Below are positions 1-37,154 of a DNA stretch of 37,154 bases, piece after piece. The translations under genes and the position numbers were made by a program. The stretch spans positions 1-37,154 of IMG/VR virus record IMGVR_UViG_3300035698_003662. One strand, 5' to 3'. How positions within the stretch are numbered: position 1 is the stretch's first letter; every line of letters starts with the position of its first letter. The notes under the pieces were generated by a model, which was not told the origin of the DNA, searched no databases, and saw only the letters and a list, made by a program, of their open reading frames with translations. The stretch is from a virus.

Positions 1-205
1 GCAAGGTACTGCGGTTTCAATGGTGGCCAGTTTTCCTCAATGGCACGTCCTTTTGTTTGGAAAACGTCATTTGCAATACTTTTTTAAGTTCAACTGTTGT
101 TTTCCTAAATGCCGCCTTCCAATTTCCCATTCCCTCACGGACCCCTCGAAGGTTACGCAAAAGTTGTTGCTCTCCTTCTATATTCCATGAAAGTTGAAAT
201 GCCAT
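1..205 (-). CDS. virion morphogenesis protein (Mu gpG / HK97 gp10-like), N-terminal part, frameshifted, runs off the window
   Basis: This is probably a neck or tail-completion protein acting between connector and tail terminator. The uninterrupted frame from ATG at 205 stops at TGA 17-19 after 62 residues. A -1 slip at the A4 run (51-54 on the plus strand) would instead continue as FSKQ-KGRAIEENWPPLKPQYL to the window edge. The W-x-P-L-x-P-x-Y-L pattern is typical of this family; the zero-frame ending KTGHH is not a full domain. I infer an indel (sequencing error near a contig end, real mutation or frameshift) rather than a 62-residue protein. It starts 3 bases after the connector stop at 208. 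The matching C-terminal part is at 37006-37154. The family call rests on pattern and synteny. Confidence 0.6.
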
Positions 206-207
206 AG

Positions 208-1128
208 TTAGTAATCTTTATCAATAGTAAACAACCGTTCCGGCGTGTCTACGTCGTCGCTTCCGTCATTCAATGGGAAACTATCTAACTTGCCGGCGTT
301 TGTATTCCTTGTAAGCTCGCTTCCGTCCTCGCCAATAAGTATTTGTGTTCCGCTTTTAATCGACTTCAACATTCCCCGGGCTTCACCTAACCACTTTTTA
401 CCTTCGCCCTCGGGTCCAAACTCCTCAAAGTCAATATAACCACCGGCCAATAAATCACAAATGGTATTAAGAAGTGGTGGCACTTCTGATAATGGCAATG
501 GGTATAGTGAAGCAATGCAACTATTAATTTCGTTTTCTGCTTGTTTTCTTTTTCTCTCAAGTCGACTGTCGTTAATATAAGGATTGTTTGTAAGTCCGGC
601 TTGTACTCTGATTTGGTAAATCGAAGTGTACCGTTTGCTTTCGTCGGCCTCTACTGCCTCGGCGTCGTCGGTGCTTGTTTCGTCTGACGTTTCTACATTA
701 AAATATGTTGACTTAAAATGTGTGTAACCCTCGACACCGGTGTACTCAAGGATTGTGCCTTGTGGGTCGTCAACTTGAATTGCTTTTGGTGAGCCGTCGG
801 ACGTAAGCTCTACGTACGTTCCTGTTGCGCTTGTAGCTCCGTAAAACTTCCGTTGATTATATCTATATAAAGTAACTGGCTCGCCTTTCTTGTGTGCAAA
901 CTTAAGAGTCGCAACTTGAATTGCGGTACCCGCCACAACCGCCGCGTCGAGTTGTTGAAGTTCTGCTTTTTCGGACCCTTCCCGGCCAACAACGATATAG
1001 TCATTATCCGCTAACCCGTCATTACTCAATAGGGTAAGTGCAACACTTGACCCCGCCGAAGCGTCCGCGTCAAGTACGCTTCGCTCTAGCTTTATAAAAT
1101 CCTCTGTTGGTGCAATTAGTGTTTTCAT
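208..1128 (-). CDS. head-tail connector/adaptor (Mu gp36/DUF1320-like C-terminal half)
   Basis: A 306-residue protein. Residues about 185-275 read like DUF1320/gp36-type connectors: an N-D-S-R-L-x-R helix, an A-E-N-E-I-N-S helix, L-Y-P-L-P-L, then a helix with L-L-N-T-I-C-D-L-L-A. These proteins form the ring under the portal. The N-terminal half is an additional beta-rich domain with a GREGSEKAEL segment and an acidic linker (DETSTDDAEAVEADE). It is longer than the usual 130-150 residues, so this is an extended or fused form. The start overlaps the stop of the repeat protein by 4 bases (ATGA), showing translational coupling. Function is inferred from the C-terminal pattern and the position before the gpG-like gene. 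Confidence 0.6.
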   Translation of the reverse strand: MKTLIAPTEDFIKLERSVLDADASAGSSVALTLLSNDGLADNDYIVVGREGSEKAELQQLDAAVVAGTAIQVATLKFAHKKGEPVTLYRYNQRKFYGATSATGTYVELTSDGSPKAIQVDDPQGTILEYTGVEGYTHFKSTYFNVETSDETSTDDAEAVEADESKRYTSIYQIRVQAGLTNNPYINDSRLERKRKQAENEINSCIASLYPLPLSEVPPLLNTICDLLAGGYIDFEEFGPEGEGKKWLGEARGMLKSIKSGTQILIGEDGSELTRNTNAGKLDSFPLNDGSDDVDTPERLFTIDKDY

Positions 1129-3284
1129 AATATTGTTTTTTCTTGGTTATTTGACCTCAAAACATGTTTGTCCTGTTGCTTTGATTTTACCACATTTCTA
1201 TCTTTACGATAAGTCAAGGTTGTTGTTATGTCCTTCCTTGCTGTACCAACAACCGTTAATTGAGGCTTGCTTAATAATACACTTCCCGGTTTCCCACTTA
1301 TTATATTTCGACCGCTTATTTCGGCGCCACGTTCGCTTGAAGAACCTAATACACCTGTCATTTCTGCGGCGCGCTCGTCGGTGGCCGTTGTCTGTCCGGT
1401 TATCTCTGCGGGCCTAGTGTCTGACGCTATACTTGACCCCGTAATTTCTGCGGGCCGGTCATTAGTTGCTGTTATGCTACCGGTAATTTCTGCGTCGCGC
1501 TCGTCGTTTGTTCCTAATACACCTGTGACCTCGGCCCCTCGTTCTGCATTTGTTATTTCTTCACCATGCAATTCGGCCGGTCGAGTATCGTTTGTTGTTT
1601 CTTGGCCATGTATTTCTGCCGGCCGGGTATCGTTCGCGGTTGACTGGCCATGTATTTCGGCGTCGCGTTCATTTCCGATTATAGCGATACCGTGAAGCTC
1701 TGCGTCCCGTTCGTCATTGGCTCCAAGCACTCCGGTAATTTCTGCGTCGCGCTCGTCCGTATCTGACGATTGACCGTGAAGTTCGGCGTCCCTCTCGTCG
1801 GTTACTGTTGCAACACCATGAAGTTCGGCGTCGCGTTCGTCGTTAACAGTTATTGCCCCGGTAATTTCTGCCGGTCTTTCGTCTGTTGTTATATCCTCAC
1901 CGTGAAGTTCGGCCGGTCTTTCGTTTGTTGCGTCTAATGAGCCTGTAATTTCTGCGGGCCTTGCGTTTCCTATTGTTGCAATACCGTGGACCTCTGCGGG
2001 TCTGGTATCTGTTACGGTTATTGACCCGGTAATTTCTGCGCTTCTTTCATTATTTGTTGTATCTATTCCATGTATTTCTGCGTCGCGTTCCGCATTGGCT
2101 GTTGCTTCACCGTGCGTTTCTGCGGGTCGTGTGTCATTTGTTATTGCTTCACCATGAAGCTCGGCCGGTCTAGTATTGGTAGCCGTAATTGACCCGGTTA
2201 TTTCCGCGTCCCTTTCGTCATTGGCCGTTGACTCACCGTGCAATTCTGCGTCCCTTTCGTCGTTTGCGGTTGCTTCCCCGTGAAGTTCGGCCGGGCGAGT
2301 GTCATTCGCTGTTAGTTGGCCGTGTATTTCCGCGTCGCGTTCATCATTTGTTGCTGTCCCCGACGAGTAAGTGACACAATCGCTGTTTGAGTAATTGCTT
2401 TCGTCTGCAAGGTTTTTTACTCGGTAACAATATTCGACACCATTTGTAAGTGGTCCTGTGTCCGTATATAAAAAGTCCCCGGATACTTCATTAATTACAA
2501 TTGTTGCCTCAATTTCAACCCACCCCGCGCCGTCGTCGTTTCTTTCAATTACCCAAGTGTCCGGGTCTAGTTGGCCGTAAACTTCTGCGTCGCGTTCGTC
2601 GTTTGCCGTATCCTCTCCGTGTGTTTCTGCGTCACGTTCGTCATTTACCGGAGTGCCGGCGGCCGGCCCGTATGTAACAACTGCCATTACCGGTGTTGAG
2701 CCGGAAGAAGCAAAGTTTGCTGTGATTGCAAGTGTTCCGTCGCTTGCTGTTGCGTCACTACCACCCGAGTAAGTAACGTAAGTTTCCATTGTGCCGTCAA
2801 ACTCCTCTGTTACTCCTGTCCAAGTACATGACGAGCTAGAGTTTGAAAGTGCAATTGCTATAGCAAAACCCCCGTCCTCAATGTCAACTGTTACGGTTGG
2901 GTCTGCGGAGCCGTCCGTGTCGGAGTCAACCGGTGCGGACATATCGTACTCACTATCAAGCGCCCGGTAAACAGAAATGGCGGCACGCACCATACCGGCT
3001 CCAAATGTAACTACGACGTCCCCGGTTGTACCAGTTGGCACGTTCGCCACGGCAATACCCACAATATCCGAGTTGGCGTCGGAGTTTGAATATTGAGTAA
3101 CAATTGTTGCTGTAACGCCACCAATTGTTACCCCCGTAATAGTTGTCGCTGACCCCGCTTTACGAGCTACGATACCAACAATTATGTGACGGCCACTATC
3201 GGCACTTCCAAGACTCGCCGAGCTAAATGTATATTCGGTTAGGTTACTTGTGTCTGTGTATTCGCTTTGAAATGAATAAGCCAT
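1125..3284 (-). CDS. virion fibre or decoration protein with 25 tandem 14-residue repeats
   Basis: A 719-residue protein. Residues 1-210 form a beta-rich, Gly/Ser/Thr-rich domain. Two repeat copies follow (about 214-241), then a fibronectin-III-like segment (about 242-307, starting DTWVIERNDDG and including NGVEYCYRVKN). Residues 313-662 are 25 uninterrupted 14-residue repeats with core R-x-A-E-x-x-G, and the last 57 residues are basic. The repeats come in two flavours, ERDAE and TRPAE, mostly followed by IHG/LHG or ITG. Sitting between the capsid genes and the connector, it is most likely a head or neck fibre, or an outer decoration that binds cells or glycans. That role is inference; I do not recognise the whole protein. 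It overlaps the next gene by 4 bases. Confidence 0.65.
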   Translation of the reverse strand: MAYSFQSEYTDTSNLTEYTFSSASLGSADSGRHIIVGIVARKAGSATTITGVTIGGVTATIVTQYSNSDANSDIVGIAVANVPTGTTGDVVVTFGAGMVRAAISVYRALDSEYDMSAPVDSDTDGSADPTVTVDIEDGGFAIAIALSNSSSSCTWTGVTEEFDGTMETYVTYSGGSDATASDGTLAITANFASSGSTPVMAVVTYGPAAGTPVNDERDAETHGEDTANDERDAEVYGQLDPDTWVIERNDDGAGWVEIEATIVINEVSGDFLYTDTGPLTNGVEYCYRVKNLADESNYSNSDCVTYSSGTATNDERDAEIHGQLTANDTRPAELHGEATANDERDAELHGESTANDERDAEITGSITATNTRPAELHGEAITNDTRPAETHGEATANAERDAEIHGIDTTNNERSAEITGSITVTDTRPAEVHGIATIGNARPAEITGSLDATNERPAELHGEDITTDERPAEITGAITVNDERDAELHGVATVTDERDAELHGQSSDTDERDAEITGVLGANDERDAELHGIAIIGNERDAEIHGQSTANDTRPAEIHGQETTNDTRPAELHGEEITNAERGAEVTGVLGTNDERDAEITGSITATNDRPAEITGSSIASDTRPAEITGQTTATDERAAEMTGVLGSSSERGAEISGRNIISGKPGSVLLSKPQLTVVGTARKDITTTLTYRKDRNVVKSKQQDKHVLRSNNQEKTIL
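1299..2348. repeat. 42-bp tandem repeat array, 25 units, protein-coding
   Basis: Twenty-five back-to-back 42-bp units encode the 14-residue repeats of the 719-residue protein. The core codons for R-x-A-E-x-x-G are conserved while the four linker residues vary. The DNA units are diverged rather than identical, so this is an old, selected array. There are no unique spacers between units. Two further units lie at about 2560-2645 in the same gene and two degenerate ones at about 3375-3450 in the neighbouring gene. Confidence 0.9.
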
Positions 3285-3293
3285 GTTTTATTT

Positions 3294-4610
3294 TTACGTT
3301 GGGTACTGCCATACCAAGTCAATTTCGGTACCGTTTTGTGTGGCAATTAACGTTGGTACTGGTATACCAAAAAGGTTTGCCGGTCGAGTGTCACTTGCCG
3401 TCGTTTCTCCGTGTACTTCCGAGTCCCGCTCGTCGTTTGTATTAACCGTTGCCGAAAGTAAAAAGTTCATTCCTATTTGATTGACACCCATACTTCCTGT
3501 TGAGCCACCAAGTAAAATATAGTGGTTTATCTTGTCCTCGTCTGATGTATTGACCGTACTTGATGTGTCGCTAAAAGTTCCTGTTGAGGTTGCCGTAATA
3601 GAAACGGCCAATGCCGAGTCTGACCCGTTTACTCTTAAAGTAATTGTGCTTGTACCGTCCCTTGAGTTTCCATTAATCTGTGCGTACATTTCGTCAAATG
3701 CACCCGCAAAAAAAGTGGCTTGATTTTCGGTTTCTGTTGTACTTTCACTTCCACCAACAATTGGCGTGTACTCTGACGACCAGTTATCACTACTTGTATT
3801 TCTACAATACAAATACGGTTGCTCTCCATTTACTGTGTTTTCATACTCGCTCGACACGGTTTCCCCTGTAATTGTTCCGGTGCCTGTACCAGTTGTAAAT
3901 CTATATCCGGCCGTGTCGTCCACAATGTATGCGTCGGTGTTTGACGTATCCTCAAAAATACCTGTTGTGCTACTTGTTATTGAAATTGAAGCATTGCCGT
4001 CACTTCCATTTTTTCTTGACGCAAGCGTGGTTGCTGTACTTCTTGCATTTGCCGAAATATTAATCTGCATGTTCTTTGCTGTCCCGGCAATTCGCAAGAT
4101 TTGGTCGTTTGCCCCGTCAAAGAAGCGACCGGCCATAAACGTTAGATACGAAGTCGTACTTGCTGACGACCTATTAACTCCACCTTCCGAAACAACACAT
4201 ACCATTACTGTATTCGACGACGCGTCAAACTGCGCCATTTGCGCTGTCCAAGAAAAAGTCCCGGACCCGTTACCTATCGCATTTGAAAAAGCAACCTCGT
4301 CGCCGGCGCTTATACTGTCGGTATTTGACGTGTCCTCAAAAGTACCTGTTGAGGTTGCGCTAATAGATACTGACTGGTTCCCGTTTGTACCATTTATCCT
4401 CGCACGTACTGTTGCTGTTTGGTTGGCCGAGTTAACGCTAACGTATGTGCGTATGTTTGATAGGGTCCCGGCGCTTCTATACGTTATTTGTCGGTTTGCC
4501 TCTACTGTATCTAAACCACTAAAACCAGTACCACCGGCATAATGAAAAGTGTTACCGTTTGCGGCAAATGCACCCGCACCACTTTGTTGTAGTATTCCAA
4601 CTTTCGCCAT
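3294..4610 (-). CDS. beta-rich virion protein with three internal modules and a 14-residue repeat tail
   Basis: A 438-residue protein rich in Ser, Thr, Asn and Gly. The motif TSTGTFEDTSNTD recurs three times with changes (near residues 88, 215 and 340), each time after an R-x-N-G-x-x-x-x-S-x-S-I strand, so it contains about three copies of a 100-125-residue beta module. Near the C-terminus are two units of the neighbour's repeat (NDERDSEVHGETTA and SDTRPANLFG), followed by a short LIATQNGTEIDLVWQYPT tail that resembles the start of a fibronectin-like strand. It precedes the repeat protein by 9 bases. Shared repeats suggest the two proteins work together or that one grew by exchange with the other. 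It is probably a surface fibre or decoration; function is not known. Confidence 0.6.
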   Translation of the reverse strand: MAKVGILQQSGAGAFAANGNTFHYAGGTGFSGLDTVEANRQITYRSAGTLSNIRTYVSVNSANQTATVRARINGTNGNQSVSISATSTGTFEDTSNTDSISAGDEVAFSNAIGNGSGTFSWTAQMAQFDASSNTVMVCVVSEGGVNRSSASTTSYLTFMAGRFFDGANDQILRIAGTAKNMQINISANARSTATTLASRKNGSDGNASISITSSTTGIFEDTSNTDAYIVDDTAGYRFTTGTGTGTITGETVSSEYENTVNGEQPYLYCRNTSSDNWSSEYTPIVGGSESTTETENQATFFAGAFDEMYAQINGNSRDGTSTITLRVNGSDSALAVSITATSTGTFSDTSSTVNTSDEDKINHYILLGGSTGSMGVNQIGMNFLLSATVNTNDERDSEVHGETTASDTRPANLFGIPVPTLIATQNGTEIDLVWQYPT

Positions 4611-4623
4611 AGATTAAATAGCC

Positions 4624-5082
4624 CTAGCGTATTTCAACATCAATGTCGATTTCTTTACTAGAGCGCTTTGTTGTTAAGGCACTTGTTAGTGCGGTTTTTA
4701 ATGTTGGTTTTAGTGTCTTTCCTTCCTTAAATGCAATAACCAACTTTCTGCTTCCGTCAAACGACCATGCCGGCTCATGTCCTCTTTTAAACTGTTTTAC
4801 ATTATCCCCCGACGGGTCTTGTATTGTTTCGGTAATGTCGCCGTCGTCTGTTTTTACAATTTCTGCAAGTACTTTATTTTTCCCTGTGTTTTCTTTAATG
4901 ACTTTCGCCATTATATTTATTGCACGTTTCTTTTCGTCAACCTCTGCGTCCGGGTGCGCCTTGCATGTCTTTATCACCTTTGACGCTGTGTGTACTCGGT
5001 TATTTTCGTCTAGTGCGTCGTCCCATTCGTACTCGAGGACACAACCGCAAGTATCGGGACTCCATTGTGTTTTTCTAATCAT
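4624..5082 (-). CDS. conserved phage protein of unknown function, Cys-containing N-terminus
   Basis: A 152-residue protein beginning MIRKTQWSPDTCGCVLEYEW, with C12, C14 and a later KTCKAH segment that could bind metal or form a small Cys/His site. The C-terminal half is charged with a Lys-rich amphipathic segment. I have an impression of having seen the KTQWSPDTC start in other phage structural regions but cannot name a family. It lies among virion genes, 18 bases downstream of its neighbour. It could be a small accessory virion protein or a chaperone for the decoration proteins. Confidence 0.55.
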   Translation of the reverse strand: MIRKTQWSPDTCGCVLEYEWDDALDENNRVHTASKVIKTCKAHPDAEVDEKKRAINIMAKVIKENTGKNKVLAEIVKTDDGDITETIQDPSGDNVKQFKRGHEPAWSFDGSRKLVIAFKEGKTLKPTLKTALTSALTTKRSSKEIDIDVEIR

Positions 5083-5100
5083 GTTATTTTACTCATTTAA

Positions 5101-5532
5101 TTATGTTAATAGTGTCCAAGCATTGTGCGTTTCATTGTCGACCCACAATTGCAACTTGGTACCGTTTTCGTATTCCGCTTCTGCAACTGTGTATAGGTCT
5201 TGGTTAATAACTTCTGCTTGTTGTGTGTTTGTTCTTTGCATTACGTCACCACCGGCCTTTCTAAACATTTTGTATTTAACCGGTTTTTCTGCTACCGCAA
5301 AGGCATGAAACTTTGGATTGTTCCCGGCACTAGGTAACACAAAACGCCGACCCTCTCTGTTGTATAGAGAAAGCGACGTTATTTTTAATTTATTTTCTTC
5401 AAGGTAAACAAGCAAACGTTGCCAAGGTGATAATTCCCCGGGGATTGTTTCGTATTTACCTTTTTCCTCATAGATTGTTTCGCCGTTTGAAAGCGACACG
5501 CTCCATAAGATAGTATGTTGAGTCCTATTCAT
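5101..5532 (-). CDS. conserved hypothetical protein in the virion gene block
   Basis: A 143-residue protein with an N-terminal beta segment (ILWSVSLSNGETIYEEKG), then a Ser-Pro-Trp helix (SPWQRLLVYLEENK) and an LPSAGNNPKF loop. There is no signal peptide or membrane segment. It is plausibly a small soluble beta-alpha domain found in metagenomic phages, but I cannot assign a function. It sits between putative head decoration genes, and the start has no Shine-Dalgarno sequence. Its place in the late operon is the only functional clue. Confidence 0.55.
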   Translation of the reverse strand: MNRTQHTILWSVSLSNGETIYEEKGKYETIPGELSPWQRLLVYLEENKLKITSLSLYNREGRRFVLPSAGNNPKFHAFAVAEKPVKYKMFRKAGGDVMQRTNTQQAEVINQDLYTVAEAEYENGTKLQLWVDNETHNAWTLLT

Positions 5533-5559
5533 GGCCTCTTTTTATGTTATTTGATAATT

Positions 5560-6129
5560 CTACGAGTACGTCAATTCGATACGAAGTGTAAACGCGTCTT
5601 TAAGTCCTACACTTTCCGGTGACGCTGTAACTGCAATGTAATAATCGTGGTCCGTTGCTGTCGTGTCGTCTGCAATTGCAAGTGCCGCCGCGCTACCTTC
5701 CGCGTTAGTAAAGTTGGTGTCGCCAACTTCTGACGCATAAAACGTAACTCCTGTCGGTACTGCTGTTGTGGTACTTCCGTCGTAAGCATAGAATATAGCG
5801 CTTTCAGTAATAACCGAAGAAGCGTCGGAAAAGGTGATTTTTAAGGTCGCCTCTCCCGCCAACATTGCGTCTATATCTTCTGTTCCGTCGCCCCAATCCG
5901 CTTGTGAGTCACCCCCACCACCACCGGCGGTTGAAATAAACTTTACGTTATTTGGAGTGTTACCACTCGAGTCGTCGGCACCACCTGACGCCTTAACGTG
6001 CGTTGTGTCGTTATATGCGGCTACGGTAATTTTAGAGTCGAAACCCCCCGCGCCGGCAAACTTCACAATATCCGTTGCGTCAATTGTTGTCGGTGATGTT
6101 CCTTGTAGGAGCCATACAAATGTTGCCAT
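5560..6129 (-). CDS. putative head decoration or fibre protein
   Basis: A 189-residue acidic, Thr/Ala/Gly/Asp-rich protein with few Lys or Arg and a GGGGG hinge in the middle. The N-terminal part reads as strands (MATFVWLLQGTSPTTIDATD) and the C-terminal part (residues about 95-189) as a separate beta-rich domain. This composition is typical of capsid-surface proteins. It is the fourth gene downstream of the major capsid gene. No enzyme motif is visible. Role inferred from composition and neighbours only. Confidence 0.5.
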   Translation of the reverse strand: MATFVWLLQGTSPTTIDATDIVKFAGAGGFDSKITVAAYNDTTHVKASGGADDSSGNTPNNVKFISTAGGGGGDSQADWGDGTEDIDAMLAGEATLKITFSDASSVITESAIFYAYDGSTTTAVPTGVTFYASEVGDTNFTNAEGSAAALAIADDTTATDHDYYIAVTASPESVGLKDAFTLRIELTYS

Positions 6130-6152
6130 AGTAATTGTGTATTAATTAATAA

Positions 6153-6578
6153 TTATTTCAAGAAAGCCGTTACAGAATAGGTAAACGCTATGGTGTCAAC
6201 TTCTGTTGTAATTCCACGGTACCTGATATTGTCGCCAAACCCTATTTGCAATGCGGCGCTTTCTGCTTGTTCTGCCGTTGCCAATACCGAGTTTGACGCA
6301 ACTAATGGTAGTGCTTTGAAAGACATTATATATTTCTTTGCACCACCATTTCCTAGCACTTGAGTAAACAAACCAATGTTGACCCAACTTGTGCCACCGT
6401 CAAATGAAGTATCAATGTAAACGTCGAGCAAGTCCGTCACCGCCGTTGCCGCCGACGTAACGTCAAGCGTAACTACCATTTCAGTATATGCGCGTTGTAG
6501 TTTTATTGCGTCGCCTGTTTCCGTTGTTGCTGTTGCAACTGCGGCCGACGCTCTCAATGTTTCAATTGCGGTTTTCAT
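6153..6578 (-). CDS. putative virion protein, small beta domain
   Basis: A 141-residue Ala/Thr-rich protein with a segment LDVYIDTSFDGGTSWVNIG that resembles strands found in phage head-surface or neck proteins. No membrane or catalytic motif is seen. It is followed after 23 bases by the next putative decoration gene. Position after the major capsid gene and composition support a virion role; the exact role is unknown. Confidence 0.5.
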   Translation of the reverse strand: MKTAIETLRASAAVATATTETGDAIKLQRAYTEMVVTLDVTSAATAVTDLLDVYIDTSFDGGTSWVNIGLFTQVLGNGGAKKYIMSFKALPLVASNSVLATAEQAESAALQIGFGDNIRYRGITTEVDTIAFTYSVTAFLK

Positions 6579-6592
6579 TGTTGGTTTTTAGA

Positions 6593-7024
6593 TTAAAGGT
6601 TGTCGTCTACTTTGGCAATCAACCCTTCTGCAAAGTTGCTAGCTTCCTCGTCTGTGAGTTCAAGTACCGCGTCGACTTCGTGTACTGTTCCCTGTGGATA
6701 CTCTAGCCCTTGCAATACTTTATATTGTGACTTTACCGGTTCGTTGTTTTCGTTGTCTTGGTTGTCACCCGGTTGTGGTTTTTCAACTGTTCCCGGTTCA
6801 ACTTTTACTTCACCGTCCACTTGGTCGCCCTCTCGTTTGACTTCGTTAACTGGTGGTTGAGGTGTTTCTATTTCCTCGTCCTCTACGTCCTCTGCGTTTA
6901 CGTCAACAATAATGTTGTCGTTTAATAGCGCTTCGGCTGTTGCTTCGTCAAGGTCGATAACGTCGCCCTTTTTAAAGTCCTTACCGTTGTGTCTTAGATT
7001 TGATTTTACTTTGTAATCACTCAT
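6593..7024 (-). CDS. acidic two-domain protein with a Pro/Glu-rich linker
   Basis: A 143-residue, very acidic protein. Residues 1-45 (SDYKVKSNLRHNGKDFKKGD...) and the C-terminal 45 residues (YKVLQGLEYPQGTVHEVDAV) look like two copies of a small beta domain of the type seen in short phage head or tail proteins ('K-x-G-D-x-I-x-L-D/E-x-x-E-A'). The middle 50 residues are a Glu/Pro/Asn-rich, probably disordered linker. I infer an internal domain duplication. It may be an accessory virion or assembly factor. Start ATG at 7024 follows an A-rich leader. Confidence 0.5.
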   Translation of the reverse strand: MSDYKVKSNLRHNGKDFKKGDVIDLDEATAEALLNDNIIVDVNAEDVEDEEIETPQPPVNEVKREGDQVDGEVKVEPGTVEKPQPGDNQDNENNEPVKSQYKVLQGLEYPQGTVHEVDAVLELTDEEASNFAEGLIAKVDDNL

Positions 7025-7045
7025 GTTTTTTTATTATTATTATTG

Positions 7046-7585
7046 TTAATCACTAATTAAGTACTCAACGAATATTACCATTTTTCCGGCGGTCAATGCG
7101 GCCACCGCTACTGTAACGATAATTTCTTTTTCTGCTGATAACTTAATGAATGTACCCGCTATCAAGGCGCCAACCTCAAGTGCGGTATCGTGTGCCGCGT
7201 CTGCACCAAGAGCCGGAGCGCCCGGTATTGCGTGGTGTAGTCCCGCGTTAAATGGGTCTGTTGTGTCTGCAATGTCGTCTGCAACCAATAGGTCACCGGC
7301 GCTTGCAACGTGCAAGGCAATAGTCGCTGTATCTGTTGCGCTTGTAAACGTTGTAACAACGTCATACCAAGCCCTTGTAATAACAGCATTGTCCGGTACA
7401 TAAACACCGGTTCCATGCGCGGCTATTGTTGTGTTTGCAACTCCGGCACTATCTGTACCGGCCGTGTCAAATGTTGCTGTTGCAACTTTCGATACGGTTA
7501 ACCCGTCTTGTCGTGTAACTGCTCCACGCTTCATTTTGAAGTCGGGGGCTGATACTCTTTGTCCAAACTTTATATCTTTTGACAT
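7046..7585 (-). CDS. putative capsid-associated virion protein
   Basis: A 179-residue Ala/Thr/Val-rich protein and the first gene after the major capsid gene. Its first 30 residues (SKDIKFGQRVSAPDFKMK...) are basic and polar; the rest alternates short strands with Ala-rich turns (ATFDTAGTDSAGVANTTIAA, residues 36-55). It lacks membrane segments, Cys clusters or catalytic signatures. In phages with this gene order, such proteins decorate the capsid or form a head fibre base. This is inference from position and composition. The 100-base gap before it holds two strong hairpins. Confidence 0.5.
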   Translation of the reverse strand: MSKDIKFGQRVSAPDFKMKRGAVTRQDGLTVSKVATATFDTAGTDSAGVANTTIAAHGTGVYVPDNAVITRAWYDVVTTFTSATDTATIALHVASAGDLLVADDIADTTDPFNAGLHHAIPGAPALGADAAHDTALEVGALIAGTFIKLSAEKEIIVTVAVAALTAGKMVIFVEYLISD

Positions 7586-7623
7586 AATATTTTTTGAGTT
7601 AATACGGCGAGTTTGTGACCCTT

Positions 7624-7667
7624 ACTCTTGGTCCCTTCGAGGCCGAGAGTGGGGGCCACAATGGCCC
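7624..7667 (-). other. two adjacent hairpins in the 3' region of the capsid mRNA
   Basis: Between the capsid stop and the next gene, 7653-7667 is a perfect hairpin (six-base stem GGGCCA/TGGCCC, loop of three). 7624-7650 forms an eight-base stem (ACTCTTGG/CCGAGAGT, one G-T pair). No U-tract follows, so a classical intrinsic terminator is unlikely. They may stabilise or process the capsid message, or partially attenuate transcription. Confidence 0.5.
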
Positions 7668-7685
7668 ACCATAATCCTAATAACT

Positions 7686-8603
7686 TTAAGCTACTGCGTT
7701 TTTGATAAGATAAGCCGCTTCAACTGCCACAAACTTTTGTGTGTAGTTTTCATTAGCTCGTACATATCGTGCTTCTGCGTCCACGTCGTCCCACTTCTTA
7801 ACCTTTCTGTCCTCATACTTGAAGGTAAACCCAAGTGTGATTGAGCGAAGGCGAGCGGCCGGCGCAATATACATTAGCCATGCGTGCTTTCCCCAAATAT
7901 ACCCCATGCTACTTGTAGCACCTTCGGTTGCGGTTTCATAAATTGCCGCCGCAACAATCACTTTGCTAACACCAAATAGGCGCGCTAGTAATTCCTCTGT
8001 TGCTACTCCGAGTTGAGAGTATTTAATTTTTTCTACAATGTCCGGGTGTTCAATCAAAGTGTCAAACACTTCTTGACTCAATACTAGAGTGTTTGGCTTT
8101 CGGCCAATCGCTTTTTGTACTGTTTGTCGTCCCGTTTTAACGTCCCCTAGTGGGTCCGAGTTTGTGTAATCACTCCATTGTGATGTACCGGAAAGAGTCG
8201 TGTTTGCGGTCATTATAGCTGTACTCGCCATAGAAGTTGCAAGTGCAATTTCTTTGTCGATTTGCAACTGCTCGGTAATGTTTTCGGTTGCGTCCATTTC
8301 CGGGTTAAGTGCGCTATCTGCCTGTCTGATAATCTCCCATGGTGTTTTCTCTTTCAATGCGTGGTCCTCTGTTGTAAAGCTAGCTGTTGAAAGCCCGTAC
8401 TCTACTTCATTAGCTTTGGCACCCGCCGCACGTTTTGTTGTGTTGCGTCTAAACTTTGCTTTATCGTATACGTAGTATTTACCGGTTTCCTTTCCTGTTG
8501 GAAAAGAAGGGAAAAGCATATCTGCAACATACATTTCGTTACTGTACGCTTTTGATACGTTTGACAATACCGGGTCTACTACAACATCTGTTCTAACTAA
8601 CAT
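7686..8603 (-). CDS. major capsid protein (HK97 fold)
   Basis: A 305-residue protein, the main shell subunit. Features typical of short HK97-fold capsid proteins are: an N-terminal arm (MLVRTDVVVDPVLSNVSKAY), ADMLFPSFPTGKETGKYYVYDKAKF, the TTEDHALKEKTPWEIIRQAD spine-helix segment, and NTLVLSQEVFDTLIEHPDI in the P/A-domain region. The C-terminal ITLGFTFKYEDRKVKKWDDV segment is close to those in related capsid proteins. There is no N-terminal delta domain, consistent with a separate scaffold fused to the protease upstream. It follows a decoration-like gene by 28 bases. Leader is A-rich, no Shine-Dalgarno. Confidence 0.85.
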   Translation of the reverse strand: MLVRTDVVVDPVLSNVSKAYSNEMYVADMLFPSFPTGKETGKYYVYDKAKFRRNTTKRAAGAKANEVEYGLSTASFTTEDHALKEKTPWEIIRQADSALNPEMDATENITEQLQIDKEIALATSMASTAIMTANTTLSGTSQWSDYTNSDPLGDVKTGRQTVQKAIGRKPNTLVLSQEVFDTLIEHPDIVEKIKYSQLGVATEELLARLFGVSKVIVAAAIYETATEGATSSMGYIWGKHAWLMYIAPAARLRSITLGFTFKYEDRKVKKWDDVDAEARYVRANENYTQKFVAVEAAYLIKNAVA

Positions 8604-8631
8604 AGTGTTTTTTAAATTAAGTTAATAATGC

Positions 8632-9009
8632 CTAAGCAACGGATAGAGTGAAGATACCAAGTTGTACCTCGATAACGTCCCCGTCTGTGGCGCTTGTTTC
8701 TAATGCTCGACCGATTATTACGTCTAAGTCGGTAGTTGTTGTAAGCGCTCGTCCGTCTGACTTTGCGGTTACCCAATCACCAAGAGTTACTACACCCCCG
8801 GCTACTACCTTTGAAGTTCCAAGGAAACGGTAAATTGCCGCTTCGCCGGACGCTGGCTTGTTTTGAAGTACACCAACTATAAGGTCGGTTGCCCCTTCGG
8901 CAATCTCGACATTACCGGAAGCGTCAAGCTGTACAATATGATACTTTGCTGACGCTAAACTTTCGCCGGCTGTACCTGTTCTCTCAAAATCTGCTATTGA
9001 TTGACTCAT
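8632..9009 (-). CDS. capsid decoration / stabilising protein (DUF2190-like)
   Basis: A 125-residue protein of the small beta type found between scaffold and capsid genes. Residues 15-60 (ESLASAKYHIVQLDASGNVEIAEGATDLIVGVLQNKP) and the later GGVVTLGDWVTAKSDGRA match the DUF2190/RecA-like-named phage decoration pattern 'G-x-V-x-x-G-D-x-V'. Such proteins bind the outside of the shell at three-fold sites. Gene order protease-decoration-capsid is conserved in many siphophages. No SD sequence. The family call is from pattern. Confidence 0.65.
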   Translation of the reverse strand: MSQSIADFERTGTAGESLASAKYHIVQLDASGNVEIAEGATDLIVGVLQNKPASGEAAIYRFLGTSKVVAGGVVTLGDWVTAKSDGRALTTTTDLDVIIGRALETSATDGDVIEVQLGIFTLSVA

Positions 9010-9037
9010 GGTATTTTAAGTTTAATTTGTTAATAAA

Positions 9038-9856
9038 TTATTTCTCTGACTCGTAACGGTGAGCAAGTGCGGGGTTTTCTTCACAAACTCGTTTTACTGC
9101 GTCTGTGTATCCCATACCTTTATTTTCACTCATTACCTTTTTGGCTTTTGCGTCAAGTTCTGCAAATGCTGTACCTTCTGTGTTTCCACCGTTACCAATC
9201 TCGTTAAACAAGTTGGTTGCCGGGATAGCATTTACTAAATCTGCAAACTCCTTTCTCTGCACGTCTGTTGTAAGTCCCTTCATAAAGCTAAATACTTTTT
9301 CGCTTTGTGCCGGTAAAAATCGTCCTTCTGAGTTCTGCTCTGAAAAGACAAGTTTATTTGACTGTGTTTGTATTTTAGACATTCTCAATTCCTCTGACGC
9401 TTCGTAACCCGCGTTTGCCTTTGTTGAAAGCACTTTTGCTTCTGCTATTGACATAATCACGTTACCTTTACCGTCTGTCTTAAAATCTGACGCCTCTGTT
9501 GGTGCGCCTTCCTCTTTCTTTTCCTCTACCGGAGCGTCGGGTGCTTTCTCTGACCCGTCCTCATTCTTGCCGGCTTCAACGTTGGCTTGCTTTTCTGCGT
9601 CGGTCAATTCTACAGGTGCGTCTTTTGCTGACCCGTCGCGGTTAAGGCCCTTTGCCTCGTTAGCGTCGCCTACCTCTTTTGCTTCACGTGTTGCTTTTTC
9701 CTCGTCGGTTTCTGCGGGTGCTTCCTCAACTTTTAGCACGCTTTCAAAAGTGGTTTTTTGTTCGTCGTTGAGTTCGTCTTTATGCTCAACTACAAACGCT
9801 TTTTCTTCTGCCGAAAGTTCCTCAACTTTCTTGGCTAATATTTCTTGTAAGTTCAT
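9038..9856 (-). CDS. possible nested scaffold gene (internal start in the protease gene)
   Basis: An in-frame ATG at 9856 begins MNLQEILAKKVEELSAEEK, exactly where the protease domain ends and the helical scaffold begins. It is preceded by an A-rich stretch (GAAAATAACAACATG) like that of accepted starts in this genome. It would give a 272-residue scaffold alone. Nested scaffold genes are known for lambda C/Nu3 and Mu I/Z. Whether this start is used is inference. Confidence 0.5.
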   Translation of the reverse strand: MNLQEILAKKVEELSAEEKAFVVEHKDELNDEQKTTFESVLKVEEAPAETDEEKATREAKEVGDANEAKGLNRDGSAKDAPVELTDAEKQANVEAGKNEDGSEKAPDAPVEEKKEEGAPTEASDFKTDGKGNVIMSIAEAKVLSTKANAGYEASEELRMSKIQTQSNKLVFSEQNSEGRFLPAQSEKVFSFMKGLTTDVQRKEFADLVNAIPATNLFNEIGNGGNTEGTAFAELDAKAKKVMSENKGMGYTDAVKRVCEENPALAHRYESEK

Positions 9857-10405
9857 GTTGTTATTTTCGTTAAGATTAAATTGATTGTTAATAATAGGTT
9901 CACTCATTACGACCGCCGTTAATTCCTTGAAGTATGGTTTGTTTGTTAACGCGCCACCTACAAGTACGTTGGTGTATATTGCCCGGGTTTCCGGGTCCTC
10001 ATACTCCGAGTAAAACTCGGGGCTAAAAAACTTAAACGCTTTTTCGGCCAAGAGGGTTTTTCCCTTCTCGGTCCATTCTACCACGGCAAACAAGCCGTTA
10101 GCGCCTCTGTCAATTAGTTCCGTAAACCAAGCAATGGCCGGTAACTCACCGCCACCCATTCCGTTATCGTGGCCCTCTGTAATGGGTATGCCTTTACGTA
10201 AGCCGTTATCGAAGTTCTGTTTAAATTGTGCTATATCCTCGCGTTCAATTACGAGTGGACCATAAGCCGGGTGGTTCCACTTGCCTACTGGTAAAACGTG
10301 TATTTCTCCGGGTGCGCCTTCGCTTGCGGTTCTTTCCGCAAACATGTGCATTTCGATTGGAAATATAACCGGTAACCGTTTTGTTTTTTGGTCCTTTAGT
10401 TTCAT
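9038..10405 (-). CDS. prohead protease (Mu gpI-like) fused to scaffold
   Basis: A 455-residue protein. Residues about 20-170 match Mu gpI-type head maturation proteases: GKWNHPAYGPLVIEREDI, IPITEGHDNG with the likely catalytic His, AIAWFTELIDRGANGLFAVVEWTEKG and FKFFSPEFYSEY with the likely catalytic Ser. Residues about 185-455 are a Glu/Lys/Ala-rich, helical scaffold with a disordered centre (DAPVEEKKEEGAPTEASDF). The protease cleaves the scaffold, and perhaps itself, during shell maturation. The start ATG at 10405 lies six bases after a TATAAT box. It directly precedes decoration and capsid genes. Catalytic residues are assigned by family pattern. Confidence 0.75.
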   Translation of the reverse strand: MKLKDQKTKRLPVIFPIEMHMFAERTASEGAPGEIHVLPVGKWNHPAYGPLVIEREDIAQFKQNFDNGLRKGIPITEGHDNGMGGGELPAIAWFTELIDRGANGLFAVVEWTEKGKTLLAEKAFKFFSPEFYSEYEDPETRAIYTNVLVGGALTNKPYFKELTAVVMSEPIINNQFNLNENNNMNLQEILAKKVEELSAEEKAFVVEHKDELNDEQKTTFESVLKVEEAPAETDEEKATREAKEVGDANEAKGLNRDGSAKDAPVELTDAEKQANVEAGKNEDGSEKAPDAPVEEKKEEGAPTEASDFKTDGKGNVIMSIAEAKVLSTKANAGYEASEELRMSKIQTQSNKLVFSEQNSEGRFLPAQSEKVFSFMKGLTTDVQRKEFADLVNAIPATNLFNEIGNGGNTEGTAFAELDAKAKKVMSENKGMGYTDAVKRVCEENPALAHRYESEK

Positions 10406-10411
10406 GTTTTT

Positions 10412-10417
10412 ATTATA
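10412..10417 (-). promoter_or_regulatory. -10 box for the protease/capsid genes, leaderless spacing
   Basis: TATAAT (minus strand) is followed by six bases (AAAAAC) and then ATG at 10405. A start of transcription about seven bases after the box would put +1 at the ATG. No convincing -35 is seen; TTGCAT lies 15 bases upstream. Confidence 0.5.
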
Positions 10418-10453
10418 CTATAAAATTATGTAATGCAACAAGCATGTGTACAA

Positions 10454-12823
10454 CTACTGGCCGGCTTCTTTATCTTTAATTTTCTTTGCGGCCGGGCTTG
10501 TCTTTTTAACAATCGGTGTTTTTGGTTGTAACAATTCGTTTGTTGCGTCGCCTACTCGGTCCCGGATACTCACCGGTACACCACTAATCTTTGGCTTGTT
10601 TTCCTCTGCTTGTAATATCTCGACCCATATACCACGGCAACTACTATGGAAAACTCCCACCTTCCCGAGTGGGTCCGTTTTTTCAACTATCCTTTCGTCA
10701 ATACTCAAGCAAAAATTACATGTCTTTGAGTCTAGTATTTCTGACCTCTGTAATGCGTAAATCTTTGTTTGGTTTTTATCAAATACCGTTTTACGTCCAA
10801 GGTTGATATGTCCGGCAATAACAATGTTTGCTGTGTCCCGGGTTACTTTATCTACAACCTTAACAATTGCGGCGTCCATTGCTCCAATAGTGTTTGCGGT
10901 GCTTTCACCTTTTGCCAACTTGTCGGCCAATACAGTTTTGGCACTACTGGTAATTGCTTGTGCATGCTTCGCCGCGATTGTGTCGGACCCAATACTTATT
11001 GAGCGCAACACGTCTTTGTTGTCGGCCGGTGCCTTAACTCCCATTTCTCTTGCCGCGTTATTCTTTGCAAAGTTGTATGCCTTGCGCATTATTTCGTTAA
11101 GTAATGTTGTGTACTTGGCCGTAAACTTTGTTTCCAACTTTTTAATTCCGGCAACGTCGCGTTTATCAATAAGTGGTGTTAACTTTTTAAGGTATTCGTC
11201 CTTTGAGTCCTTTAATAGTTTTCGGCTTTCTGTGGTCAACTCTTTTTCGAGCTTGTCCATGTTTGCCTGTATGCTTTTGAAGTTAACTTTTTTTTCTGCA
11301 AAAGTGAGCTTGCGCCAACCCTCGAAGTCGTTGTTTTCTTGGAAGTAACGCCATGTCAAACTGCCGTGTTGTTCTGCAAGTACTGTGGTGGCCATTGAAA
11401 ACAACTCACGGTGTTTTTTAATTCCTTTTATTTGCTCGAGCTTGTCACTTACAAAGTCGATTTGCTCGGCCATGTCCATGCTGACAAGTGCGGTTTTTAT
11501 TGCGCTCTCAACGTCTTTTTCTGATACTTTTTTTTTACGTATTAAATCTGACATTCCCAACTCGTCGGCCACGTCGTCAATCTCTTTTTGTTCTGCCTTT
11601 TTTTCGTTGTCTTTTTCTGTGTCGTCCTCGGTCCTTGTGGGTAATCCCATAAGCTCACGCAAGTACTGGTCGTCTGCGTCGATTGGTCGAAGTCCACCGG
11701 ATTGTGTAAGTCGTTGGTATGAGGTTGAAAGTTTATCAACGTCAACACGTGAAATACCGTTGTAATCGAGTTGTGGGTACACGTCTACGTTTTCAAAGTT
11801 AAGGTCCACCAATTCTTTTATCGCGTACTTGTTAATGACGTCGACAACACCGTTGGCTATTGCTTCGAGTGATTGTAAAAATAAACTTGTATGGTCCTCG
11901 GACAATGCCCGGCTTCCGGTGCTTCCACTTCCAAGGTCAAGAAATTGCGCTAATACCGAAAGTGTAATCTCTCTATTGTGATATGCAATTGCGCGCGACG
12001 GGTCACGTACAGTAAGCCCCTTCATGTCTTTAAACTCAACGTCCATGTCGTCCGGCTCAAGCAAGTATCCTTGTTCGCTTGCTCGTAGGTTTTGCAATAC
12101 TGCTTTTGCCCGGGTAACGTCTGCCTCGGTATAACCGTTTGGCATTTTTACAAATGGTACACCAAGCCCTTGTCGCTCATGTGCTACCGCGTCAATCTTT
12201 TCAATTTTATATTTAATATCGTAATGCTTGTATGCGGCACGTAACAAAGAAGTACCCCACCAGTTCTCACCTTCCATTTCGTTTACAAAAATAAGTAGCT
12301 TCTCAATTGGTATTGAAACATTGTCGGCCGCGTTCGGTGCTTGCTGTTGTATTCCTTTTTCACCGGTTGCCGTTTCCCAATGCGTAATACTAATTGGCAT
12401 GCGCGGACCAAACTTACCCCATATCACACGTTGGATTCCGTCTACTTCTCGAAGTGCATATACTTTTTCAAAAACCATTACACCAAACGGCAACATCAAA
12501 AGAGCTTGTCGCAAGAAGTCGTCCCAAGTAATAGACATTTCCTCAAAAAGCGCCCTCTCTATGAAGTCGCGTATTTCAATATCCTTTTCGTCCTCACTTG
12601 CTGAATTGACAAACCAATTGGCACGTCGTATAGGAAGTTGACAAGCTGACATTGCCGCTCTCACCGTTGCGTCTGACTTACGCATTTTGTCGAAAACTTT
12701 TATGCCCTTAACGTCGGAAAGGTCCGAGTTATATTCTTCGGTTATAATTCCCGAAAAAATGTTTGTACCGGAAACTCCTATTGCCGGTGATTGTGTCTTT
12801 TTTTCTTTGGGGTCTTTAGCCAT
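10454..12823 (-). CDS. portal protein (DUF935/Mu gp29-like) fused to a MuF-like minor head domain
   Basis: A 789-residue protein. The first ~430 residues match the DUF935 portal family: TVRAAMSACQLPIRRANWFV, RDFIERALFEEM, WGTSLLRAAYKHYDIK, GLGVPFVKMPNGYTEAD and GSGSTGSRALSEDHTSLF. The C-terminal region ends with the MuF-type pattern, RSEILDSKTCNFCLSIDERI then FHSSCRGIW, with Cys pairs and a His-Ser-Ser-Cys likely binding zinc. In Mu these are separate proteins (gp29 and gp30); here one chain would form the portal and carry the minor head domain. I chose ATG 12823 (MAKDPKEKKTQ) over the upstream ATG at 12871 because a TGG-TATAAT box ends 13 bases before it. It begins just past the terminase stop. 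Confidence 0.8.
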   Translation of the reverse strand: MAKDPKEKKTQSPAIGVSGTNIFSGIITEEYNSDLSDVKGIKVFDKMRKSDATVRAAMSACQLPIRRANWFVNSASEDEKDIEIRDFIERALFEEMSITWDDFLRQALLMLPFGVMVFEKVYALREVDGIQRVIWGKFGPRMPISITHWETATGEKGIQQQAPNAADNVSIPIEKLLIFVNEMEGENWWGTSLLRAAYKHYDIKYKIEKIDAVAHERQGLGVPFVKMPNGYTEADVTRAKAVLQNLRASEQGYLLEPDDMDVEFKDMKGLTVRDPSRAIAYHNREITLSVLAQFLDLGSGSTGSRALSEDHTSLFLQSLEAIANGVVDVINKYAIKELVDLNFENVDVYPQLDYNGISRVDVDKLSTSYQRLTQSGGLRPIDADDQYLRELMGLPTRTEDDTEKDNEKKAEQKEIDDVADELGMSDLIRKKKVSEKDVESAIKTALVSMDMAEQIDFVSDKLEQIKGIKKHRELFSMATTVLAEQHGSLTWRYFQENNDFEGWRKLTFAEKKVNFKSIQANMDKLEKELTTESRKLLKDSKDEYLKKLTPLIDKRDVAGIKKLETKFTAKYTTLLNEIMRKAYNFAKNNAAREMGVKAPADNKDVLRSISIGSDTIAAKHAQAITSSAKTVLADKLAKGESTANTIGAMDAAIVKVVDKVTRDTANIVIAGHINLGRKTVFDKNQTKIYALQRSEILDSKTCNFCLSIDERIVEKTDPLGKVGVFHSSCRGIWVEILQAEENKPKISGVPVSIRDRVGDATNELLQPKTPIVKKTSPAAKKIKDKEAGQ

Positions 12824-12836
12824 ATTCTTATTAAAA

Positions 12837-12845
12837 ATTATACCA
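12837..12845 (-). promoter_or_regulatory. extended -10 promoter upstream of the portal gene
   Basis: TGG-TATAAT on the minus strand ends 13 bases before the portal ATG at 12823. The -35 region is weak (AACAAC at 17-base spacing); a TTGACA is present but at 23 bases. The extended TG probably compensates. Confidence 0.5.
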
Positions 12846-12854
12846 TGTAAGCGA

Positions 12855-14453
12855 TTAATGTTGTTTGTCAATAAGACCTGTTGTGCGTAGCGACGTTATA
12901 AGTGGGTCATTTTCTACCTTTTCGTCCGTATCTGTATTTGGTGGGTTTTTAAAATGTCCACGTTCTTGTCCTAATGGCCAATGCTGTAATGCACACATTG
13001 TTGCGTCCGGTATGTGGTCGTCTTTCTTTACTGGCTTGTTGGTCCCTTCAATGTACCGGTATCTTTTGTGTTGCCATTTTGCAATCGGCATGGTAGTTGG
13101 GATTTTCATTTTGCGCCTTTGGAAGTGCGCACGGTAGTTTCCTAACATTCCTACTTTCTCCTTACTAAATACTACCTCAACAACCTTGCAACGTAAACGT
13201 CTTTTTGTTAACTCTCTTTGTAATGCGTCGTTCTCAAACTTCCCCGCACTATCGGCATAAATAACTCTAATATCAAACTTCGCTACGTCTTTGCAAACGT
13301 CGTCAATAATTACTTCACTTGCAACTTGCGTATAGTTCTTATTTTTTAACGTCACCTTCACGGCGTCGATATGGTTCATAAGGGCAACCCATGACGTCAT
13401 GCTTGAAAATCCCCAGTCAAGGCCACCAATCACTTGCGCACCTTTAATATAATTATACTTTTTTGTGCGCTTTTTATCAAACATTGCGGCCTCAACGTCC
13501 ACCGGGTCGTTAACCAATCCGCTTGCACTTGGTCGCGTTCCCATAAACTCAACTAAAAACCAATCCTTTGTTGATTTTCCTTGCCATGCCGATATTATGT
13601 TTTCAATCTGTACCCAACCCTCGGGGTCACCCGTTCTATTTCCGCACAACTCTTTAAGCTCTTGCAAGTCCGGTATCTGTCTGTTCAATTCCTCGTCGTC
13701 CCAAATGTTCGGATTAAAACTTTCTGTTACGTCGAAAATGTCCCAACTGAAACGTGTATACCCTCGCTCGTCGGCTTGGTCCCATATCTCTTGAAATATC
13801 CCAAAGATTTTGTGAAAGGTTGAAGTAAGAATTGTTAACGGTTCCTTGCTCGAGGTAACCATTGGCAATGCGTCATTCATTATTTCGTCCTTGGCTTCGC
13901 AAACTTCGTCGGCCAACAATACGTCCGGGTGAGGTCCACGCACCGCTTTTGGTGACGCCGGCAATGCTTTAAAGTATTTGCCTTTCTTGTCCTCGGTGTG
14001 TTCCATTAACGGGTCCTTCTTACAGTATTTTAAAATGTTGTCGTTGGAAAAAATAATTGCCGAAAAATAACCGTAAACGATTTTGGCTTGAGCGAGTGAC
14101 CCGCCCATGTCTACGATTGACCTTTTACGTAGAAACCAAAGACAAAAACCAAGTGCGCCCATGAGTACGCTTTTACCACCACCTCGAGGACCGGTAATAA
14201 TTATTTTCTTTCCCGCTCGCCCGGTCCATATCTCACCAAATATATATTGAAACTTTGCCGGCCATAGAATATCCGGGTATGTTGCACGTAAAAGTTTAAG
14301 AGGTTTCCCGTGTGGGTTCTCTTTTGTACTCCTAGAGTAATTATCCCTAAAGTGTTCGGGGTCATGCGGTTTTACTTCCACCGCTTCACTTAAAATATTA
14401 AGTGTTGACGCCGGCTCTTTTGGCTTCGTCAATGAGGTCAACGAGGGTATCAT
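12855..14453 (-). CDS. terL: terminase large subunit
   Basis: A 532-residue packaging motor from ATG 14453. ATPase: Walker A GPRGGGKS (about residues 88-95) and Walker B VLLADE (about 177-182, catalytic Glu), with a probable coupling motif near TILTSTFH. Nuclease: GGLDWG with the first Asp (about 345), VIYADS with the second (about 400) and DHIPDA with the third, the RNase H-like triad of TerL. It cuts concatemers and drives DNA into the prohead through the portal. A start at 14540 is open but would overlap the small-subunit gene by 143 bases; 14453 (leader AAAATAAGTTTTATG) overlaps by 56. It is followed directly by the portal gene. Confidence 0.9.
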   Translation of the reverse strand: MIPSLTSLTKPKEPASTLNILSEAVEVKPHDPEHFRDNYSRSTKENPHGKPLKLLRATYPDILWPAKFQYIFGEIWTGRAGKKIIITGPRGGGKSVLMGALGFCLWFLRKRSIVDMGGSLAQAKIVYGYFSAIIFSNDNILKYCKKDPLMEHTEDKKGKYFKALPASPKAVRGPHPDVLLADEVCEAKDEIMNDALPMVTSSKEPLTILTSTFHKIFGIFQEIWDQADERGYTRFSWDIFDVTESFNPNIWDDEELNRQIPDLQELKELCGNRTGDPEGWVQIENIISAWQGKSTKDWFLVEFMGTRPSASGLVNDPVDVEAAMFDKKRTKKYNYIKGAQVIGGLDWGFSSMTSWVALMNHIDAVKVTLKNKNYTQVASEVIIDDVCKDVAKFDIRVIYADSAGKFENDALQRELTKRRLRCKVVEVVFSKEKVGMLGNYRAHFQRRKMKIPTTMPIAKWQHKRYRYIEGTNKPVKKDDHIPDATMCALQHWPLGQERGHFKNPPNTDTDEKVENDPLITSLRTTGLIDKQH

Positions 14454-14910: not shown

Positions 14911-14919
14911 AGTAAGTTC

Positions 14920-35715: not shown

Positions 35716-35741
35716 ATTAGTATTGGTTAAATGTTAATAAT

Positions 35742-35975: not shown

Positions 35976-35983
35976 AATGTTTT

Positions 35984-36499
35984 TTATCTTAATTGTGTAA
36001 AGTGGGCTATAAACTCAAGTTGTGCTTCTACCGCCCATGCTTCTTGCTCTCGCTTGCCAACGGTTAGTCCGTAGTCGACCCGGGTAATACTTCCAAGGTC
36101 GGTGCGCAAGCCAAGGGTGGTGTCAACATCAACGTTATTTCTCAAAATATGTAAAAGTGACTTTGTTTTGAGCTTTAATGTCGCGCTTTCCCTACCTTCC
36201 ATTATATCATAAAGCGTTGAAATGCCCGGTGCAATAGCTTTATCGTCGTTAATATCGTTGCGTATATCAGTAATGACCGTAAGCGTGAGCGCCATTAAAT
36301 GCGTATCGTCGACGTTCGACCCACCGTCTAGTGCATTACTCGCTCGCGTTTCGTCTTTTGAAATTATAATTGCCGGCAAACTACTATTCGGTACTCGTAT
36401 TGGGTCCCCTTGGTAATAAAACTTAAAAAAGCTATCGCCAACGACGCTTTTGATAAGGTCAAAGTACTTGGTTATGATTGGGTCTTGGTAAGTGGTCAT
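35984..36499 (-). CDS. tail terminator / tail completion protein (gpU-like)
   Basis: A 171-residue protein (MTTYQDPIITKYFDLIKSVV ... LGSITRVDYGLTVGKREQEA). It shows a beginning helix, the LPAIIISKDETRA strand, a LMALTLTVITDIRNDINDDK segment and a final strand ending in AWAVEAQLEFIAHF, as in proteins that cap the tail tube and join it to the head. The HNH gene overlaps it by four bases upstream. Assignment is from gene order and general fold pattern. Confidence 0.65.
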   Translation of the reverse strand: MTTYQDPIITKYFDLIKSVVGDSFFKFYYQGDPIRVPNSSLPAIIISKDETRASNALDGGSNVDDTHLMALTLTVITDIRNDINDDKAIAPGISTLYDIMEGRESATLKLKTKSLLHILRNNVDVDTTLGLRTDLGSITRVDYGLTVGKREQEAWAVEAQLEFIAHFTQLR

Positions 36500-36984
36500 G
36501 ATTTTTTGTTTCTTAGTGAGTCAATTCCATTTGTATAAGTTCTATTTTTGTCATATACCCTATGGCATGAACGACATAACATTATAAAGTTTTCTCTTTT
36601 TCGTTCGTACTGTTTTTTTCTTTTTAATGCCCATTCAAATATTTTACTTTTATTTTTACAGTTCCTATTACCACAAGAGGTCGCTTTTCCAAACTCTCTC
36701 CTTAGCCATGCGTGTATTCCAATGTATGTTAACTTTTCTTTTAATGGTCTACTTTTGACAGCTATTGATATTTTTTCTCTTGTTTTTGTGCTATGCCTAA
36801 AACTTTTACCGTAAAAGGGATTACCCGTTCCTTTGTATTTTTCTCTTTGTGCAATTCCTTTACATTTACAACTGCAATAAATTGCTGGTGTTCGTCTTTC
36901 AAACTTTTTCCTACAAACAGAACACAAGTATTTTTTTACTGCCAATCTTCCTTTTTTGTTTTTTGAACCTTTTGGTCTACCCAT
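36496..36984 (-). CDS. HNH homing endonuclease with NUMOD3-like motif
   Basis: A 162-residue nuclease. N-terminal basic region and zinc-knuckle Cys (KKYLCSVCRKKFERRTPAIY, CSCKCKGIAQ), NUMOD3-like FYGKSFRHSTKTREKISIAV, then an HNH-type end: YIGIHAWLRREFGKATSCGN, KSKIFEWALKRKKQYERKRE, then FIMLCRSCHRVYDKNRTY. This matches phage 'H-x-W-x-x-x-x-x-G ... C ... C-x-x-C-H-x-x-Y-D' nucleases. It has its own TATAAT promoter and is inserted between the neck genes. Confidence 0.88.
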   Translation of the reverse strand: MGRPKGSKNKKGRLAVKKYLCSVCRKKFERRTPAIYCSCKCKGIAQREKYKGTGNPFYGKSFRHSTKTREKISIAVKSRPLKEKLTYIGIHAWLRREFGKATSCGNRNCKNKSKIFEWALKRKKQYERKRENFIMLCRSCHRVYDKNRTYTNGIDSLRNKKS

Positions 36985-36992
36985 ATAATGTA

Positions 36993-37022
36993 ATTATAGC
37001 ACGCTTTATGTATTCTTGTTAA
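36993..37022 (-). promoter_or_regulatory. promoter of the HNH gene, overlapping the end of the upstream gene
   Basis: TTAACA (37017-37022), 18-base spacer and TGC-TATAAT (36993-36998 with TGC at 36999-37001) precede ATG 36984 by eight bases. It overlaps the last codons and stop of the gpG-like gene. Confidence 0.65.
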
Positions 37023-37154
37023 TCTTGTTAATAAAGTGTGTGTGGAAAATCTTTACCACCATTGTTTTCTGGTCGTTACCTATCTTCATCATTGCACGAC
37101 GGGGTAGGTTGCTTCTACGTGGCCGGTTTGATTGGTGGTACTTTGAGTAAAAAA
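37006..37154 (-). CDS. virion morphogenesis protein (Mu gpG-like), C-terminal part, runs off the window
   Basis: An open frame without a start enters at the right edge and reads YSKYHQSNRPRRSNLPRRAM then MKIGNDQKTMVVKIFHTHFI to TAA at 37006. This fits the C-terminus of gpG-type proteins: 'Y-A-x-Y-H-Q-x-G ... P-x-R-P-x-x-x-x-x-x-x-x-x-x-I-V-x-I-x-x-x-H-x'. With the N-terminal part at 1-205, it completes one gene if the genome is circular. A direct join leaves a gap of about 40-50 codons by family comparison, so some sequence is likely missing at the junction. Confidence 0.6.
   Translation of the reverse strand, partial: FYSKYHQSNRPRRSNLPRRAMMKIGNDQKTMVVKIFHTHFINKINKNT

Follow-up and report, generated by a model that had tools for sequence, protein, structure and literature searches.

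The question raised by this viral DNA is why it holds no GATC. The first-pass annotation had claimed that the tetranucleotide is completely absent, and this was borne out: in the window, by which we mean the whole stretch of DNA that was analysed, GATC was not found once when all 37,154 nt were counted. The roughly 140 sites expected in the annotation agree with mononucleotide composition (134) but not with stricter nulls (29-56), and dinucleotide composition, which had been named there as a possible explanation of the absence, gave 56 sites (sd 7) when the window was shuffled accordingly. The suggested comparison of 4-mers with a Markov model yielded an expectation of 29 (order 2), and 52 sites (range 35-69) were obtained in 200 shuffles that permuted synonymous codons with codon usage and protein preserved; with uniform synonymous codons the expectation was 127. 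Other four-base palindromes are common, as had been noted: CCGG occurs 285, GTAC 196, TCGA 146 and ACGT 170 times. These counts confirm that the absence of GATC is real and not a product of composition.

The avoidance of GATC sits at synonymous sites, and the choice of codon depends on the next base. Asp preceding a codon that starts with C is encoded in the window by GAC in 98 of 98 cases and never by GAT, whereas GAT is used in 86 of 215 cases (40%) before A and in 48 of 98 (49%) before T. None of the 105 Ile codons following a G is ATC, compared with 45 of 283 following an A, and no Gly or Arg codon that ends in GA stands before TCN. In contrast, the relative G002 (see below) uses GAT in 66 of its 75 Asp codons preceding a C. 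In aligned genes, GATC of G002 mostly corresponds to GACC in the window, and GATC of another relative, G004, mostly to GATT.

GATC is not the only missing word: GATG/CATC, GGAGG, RAATTY, GCAGC, GAGAC, GDGCHC and others are likewise absent or nearly absent on both strands. Word counts are written here as observed/expected under a codon-preserving type of null, in genes. Counts far below the composition- and coding-corrected expectation, by which restriction-site avoidance is recognized, were found for GATC (0/52) and, with both strands summed, for RAATTY (0/57), GCAGC (0/49), GAGAC (0/47), GGAGG (0/61), CATCG (0/50), GATGC (1/49), CCATC (1/42), GGATG (0/30), GDGCHC (1/42), CASTG (0/42), CCWGG (0/29), GAWTC (1/33) and CMGCKG (0/25). 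Loss on both strands, as expected from avoidance of Type II and IIS sites, was seen when the strands were counted separately: 0/41 and 0/8 for GCAGC and GCTGC, 0/41 and 0/6 for GAGAC and GTCTC, 0/25 and 0/25 for CATCG and CGATG. GGAGG, which forms the core of strong ribosome-binding sites, has no occurrence on either strand of the whole window; thus no gene start in the window uses it.

To tell primary words apart from words merely containing them, we used a conditional model in which synonymous codons were Gibbs sampled with the already chosen words held down. Codon usage was refitted, the word then showing the strongest depletion joined the list, and the procedure ended once no word passed a fixed deviance. 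Candidates were 4- to 6-mers, one- or two-stranded, and REBASE sites of up to 7 bases. The model found 21 depleted words in the window, GATC among them:

Two-stranded words: CATC, GATC, CAGG, GGAGG, GCAGC, RAATTY, CCAG, GAGAC, GAAGA, GDGCHC, GAATC, CACTG, CTNAG, AGCCT, AGACT, CMGCKG, GGAGA
One-sided words: GTTC, ATTC, CTGC, GCTG

No word was found by the same model in three codon-shuffled versions of the window. Known Type II or IIS sites in the list are GATC, RAATTY, GCAGC, GAGAC, GDGCHC, GAAGA, CTNAG, CACTG and CMGCKG, and about half of the words (CATC, CAGG, CCAG, GGAGG, AGCCT, AGACT, GGAGA and the one-sided words) equal no listed enzyme site. The chosen 5-mers coincide with REBASE sites above chance in the window and in the relatives G001 and G004 (P 0.002-0.004).

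Relatives were found in IMG/VR by searches with two genes of the window:

10454 to 12871, minus strand: Mu-type portal protein (PF06074)
12855 to 14540, minus strand: putative large terminase (remote match to an annotated terminase)

The terminase is 31.5% identical to an Altiarchaeum virus terminase over 27% of its length and has no Pfam match. G001 (26 kb, 66.5% mean amino acid identity to the window over 26 genes) has no GATC, and an independent run of the conditional model gave 16 words, mostly the same as in the window. G004 (37.6 kb, 69.1% over 34 genes) shows a partial loss of GATC (39/70). It has its own word list and shares with the window CTNAG, GAATC, AGCCT, one-sided GTTC and parts of CATC; the list is headed by ACGT, absent in G004 (L018-L019; 0/78) yet common in the window. 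In G002 (39 kb, 62.7% over 25 genes) GATC is normal (114/94); the four words found are GAGAC, CTNAG, TCGA and ACGT, and GDGCHC is also nearly absent (1/15). All four genomes have fewer CTNAG, GAGAC and GDGCHC than expected, and strong loss of GATC, RAATTY and GCAGC is confined, among the four, to the window and G001. More distant relatives have lost GATC with short word lists (L067 0/48, L051 1/33.5). The same procedure gave 13 words for L027, two for L033 and seven for L038, and no word for the Nitrobacter relative G007. In the remote relative L062 GATC (0/7), GATG (0/11), CTGC (0/12) and CCGG (0/13) are missing, and CCGG is missing from two others, L060 (0/33) and L061 (0/31). A turnover of lost words among phages that resemble each other in their proteins fits restriction repertoires that change over time; neither mismatch repair nor a fixed mutational bias fits it. 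As relatives with similar proteins lost different words, the clade could serve to time the gain and loss of restriction systems.

Within the window the motif GANTC is distributed unevenly between two blocks of genes:

1 to 14970, minus strand: GANTC only mildly reduced, 19 found and 30 expected; residual GASTC sites present
14971 to 36984, minus strand: GANTC nearly absent, 2 found and 34 expected (motif counts in genes)

The contrast between the blocks has a p value of 4e-5, for one of 384 motifs tested, and the two blocks may have differing histories.

We are confident that long selection by several host restriction-modification systems is the best explanation of these losses. Very probably at least one host system cuts GATC in the manner of DpnII, MboI or Sau3AI, the type of restriction that the first-pass annotation had proposed and that is still the best reading for GATC. 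Unmodified phage DNA entering a cell would be cut wherever a site is unprotected, the chance of survival would rise as the number of sites in a genome falls, and over time nearly every site would be replaced, mostly synonymously, until none was left. About 20 further words would have been removed by the same process. Most of these are lost on both strands, in line with the action of Type II and IIS enzymes; the few words removed on one strand would fit enzymes needing two inverted sites (Type III-like). A portal protein search in a genome collection for the host gave no close match and six remote ones (the best 46%), and nothing was found with the lysin and an early gene as host links; since the host search gave no host, we infer the enzymes only. 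The sample of G004 belongs to work on chimneys of deep-sea vents, where Campylobacterota were the dominant group in the active chimney and Aquificae came second (PMC7329443); as a pointer to the host this origin is only a hint. L007, a remote relative, is from Nitrobacter vulgaris. The list of lost words represents a testable prediction of the restriction enzymes carried by the host lineage.

Composition, dinucleotide bias or codon usage alone has practically no chance of being the explanation. The order-2 Markov expectation is indeed below that from base composition, but no site was found where the stricter nulls demand 29-56, codon choice depends on the next base, and the codon-preserving shuffle (0 vs 52) rules such biases out. 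Functions specific to GATC, such as Dam methylation, MutH mismatch repair and SeqA-like binding, do act on this word and could select against it, but would leave the similar losses of RAATTY, GCAGC, GAGAC, GDGCHC and other words unexplained; we regard them as very improbable. Mismatch repair, another cause offered by the annotation, does not fit because about 20 unrelated words were lost, many of them known Type II or IIS sites, and the relatives differ in their words; it was rejected together with Dam effects. Just as improbable is a phage-made nuclease cutting GATC in host DNA, with the phage genome devoid of the site for self-protection. The window carries three HNH genes (15157-15678, 20508-20942 and 36496-36984), but the families they match are of the homing and endonuclease VII types, and one nuclease cannot account for about 20 words. 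It is unlikely that many words were lost to sequence-specific DNA defences of other kinds (BREX, Type I, Type IIG): several of the words have no counterpart among the listed Type II sites, but four- and five-base words are short for BREX or Type I sites, and in a survey the sites of Type I and IIG systems were not avoided (PMC6286503).

The one-sided words deserve separate consideration. On the coding strand of the window GTTC is nearly lost (5/73) and its complement GAAC kept (174/193); similarly, CTGC is absent (0/34) and GCAG frequent (128/201). The respective values for GTTC and GAAC are 6/45 and 93/134 in G001, 16/48 and 149/166 in G004, and 60/56 and 165/152 in G002; thus, the GTTC loss is common to the window, G001 and G004, with none in G002. 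A word kept in one orientation and missing in the other is what escape from Type III enzymes would leave behind. These enzymes require a pair of inverted sites; in T7 the 36 EcoP15 sites all point the same way, which lets the phage escape that enzyme, and GCAG is the recognition sequence of HP0593, a Type III enzyme of Helicobacter pylori (PMC3874151). A large survey saw no systematic strand asymmetry (PMC6286503). We tentatively consider it possible that the one-orientation losses (GTTC vs GAAC, CTGC vs GCAG) represent Type III escape through a strand-biased placement of sites. Part of the losses, above all the one-sided words, might also stem from a strand-specific process that acts on mRNA or during translation, such as an RNA endonuclease or codon-pair bias, although we find this somewhat doubtful. 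The losses of GTTC and CTGC are restricted to the coding strand, which is the same DNA strand for all genes used, so that effects of orientation and of coding coincide; however, the GTTC loss differs between the relatives and hits all three reading frames in the window, and such a process would leave GATC and the other two-strand words untouched. In the same test T7 also showed one-sided words, which are without explanation. If the one-sided losses are due to Type III escape, they would be a natural case beyond T7, and together with the two-strand losses and the GANTC mosaic they would form a layered record of the host restriction repertoire in a small phage clade.

Loss of restriction sites is known in kind, but its breadth in the window is unusual. 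Rusinov et al. reported sites to be lost completely or almost completely in roughly one viral genome in ten. The share was higher among non-temperate phages, where loss of Type II sites is common, and in the 46 phages with a host carrying a listed GATC enzyme, GATC was under-represented in every case (PMC6286503). Like the non-temperate dsDNA phages of this survey, in which short sites, mostly palindromic or of IIS type, are almost entirely missing and GATC is a typical case (PMC6286503), the window lacks such sites; unlike them, it has lost many words at once, some on one strand, and the enzymes are inferred. The same word-finding procedure gave 16 words for T7, seven each for the Helicobacter phages KHP30 and 1961P, and at least 17 for the Flavobacterium phage FPSV-S1; with its 21 words the window ranks near the top of this small sample, and other phages are comparable. 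T7 resembles the window in that GATC is nearly absent (6/126) and in having sites in one orientation, published for EcoP15 (PMC3874151), but its words are different, and GTTC/GAAC and CTGC/GCAG of the window are tied to no known enzyme. As the T7 words include AAAAA, some words may have other causes. FPSV-S1 has also lost GATC (2/60); in contrast to the window, where CCGG and GGCC are over-represented, it has lost both, and its other words differ too.

Among the genes of the window is one for a predicted methyltransferase:

15675 to 16625, minus strand: predicted cytosine-5 DNA methyltransferase, 316 aa (PF00145, E 6.5e-39)

Its nearest phage homologue (47%) is in Flavobacterium phages (FPSV-S1). 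Matches to it were found in G001 and G004, and none was found in G002. The match in G001 (L010, 10337-11098) spans one internal TGA, which indicates a broken gene or an assembly error. CCGG is over-represented in genes of the window (272 vs 131 expected), G001 (184/85) and G004 (157/68), less so in G002 (62/42); the three genomes with the strong excess are those with the cytosine methyltransferase. GGCC is in excess in the genes of the window as well (150 vs 101 expected). Phages that avoid restriction sites usually, though not necessarily, have a non-temperate life cycle. Among the genes scanned, many of which had no match, none was recognised as coding for an integrase, a GATC methylase or an anti-restriction protein. 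Other genes recognised encode a Mu-type protease, Mu-type Gp36, a tail tube protein, a tape measure protein, a major head protein and a lytic transglycosylase domain. The gene at 1125-3284 encodes a 719-aa protein with TNDERDAEIHG-like repeated units; it contains a unit of about 14 codons repeated in tandem at a spacing of 42 nt, with 16 copies of the reference unit, and the product is possibly a tail fibre or adhesin.
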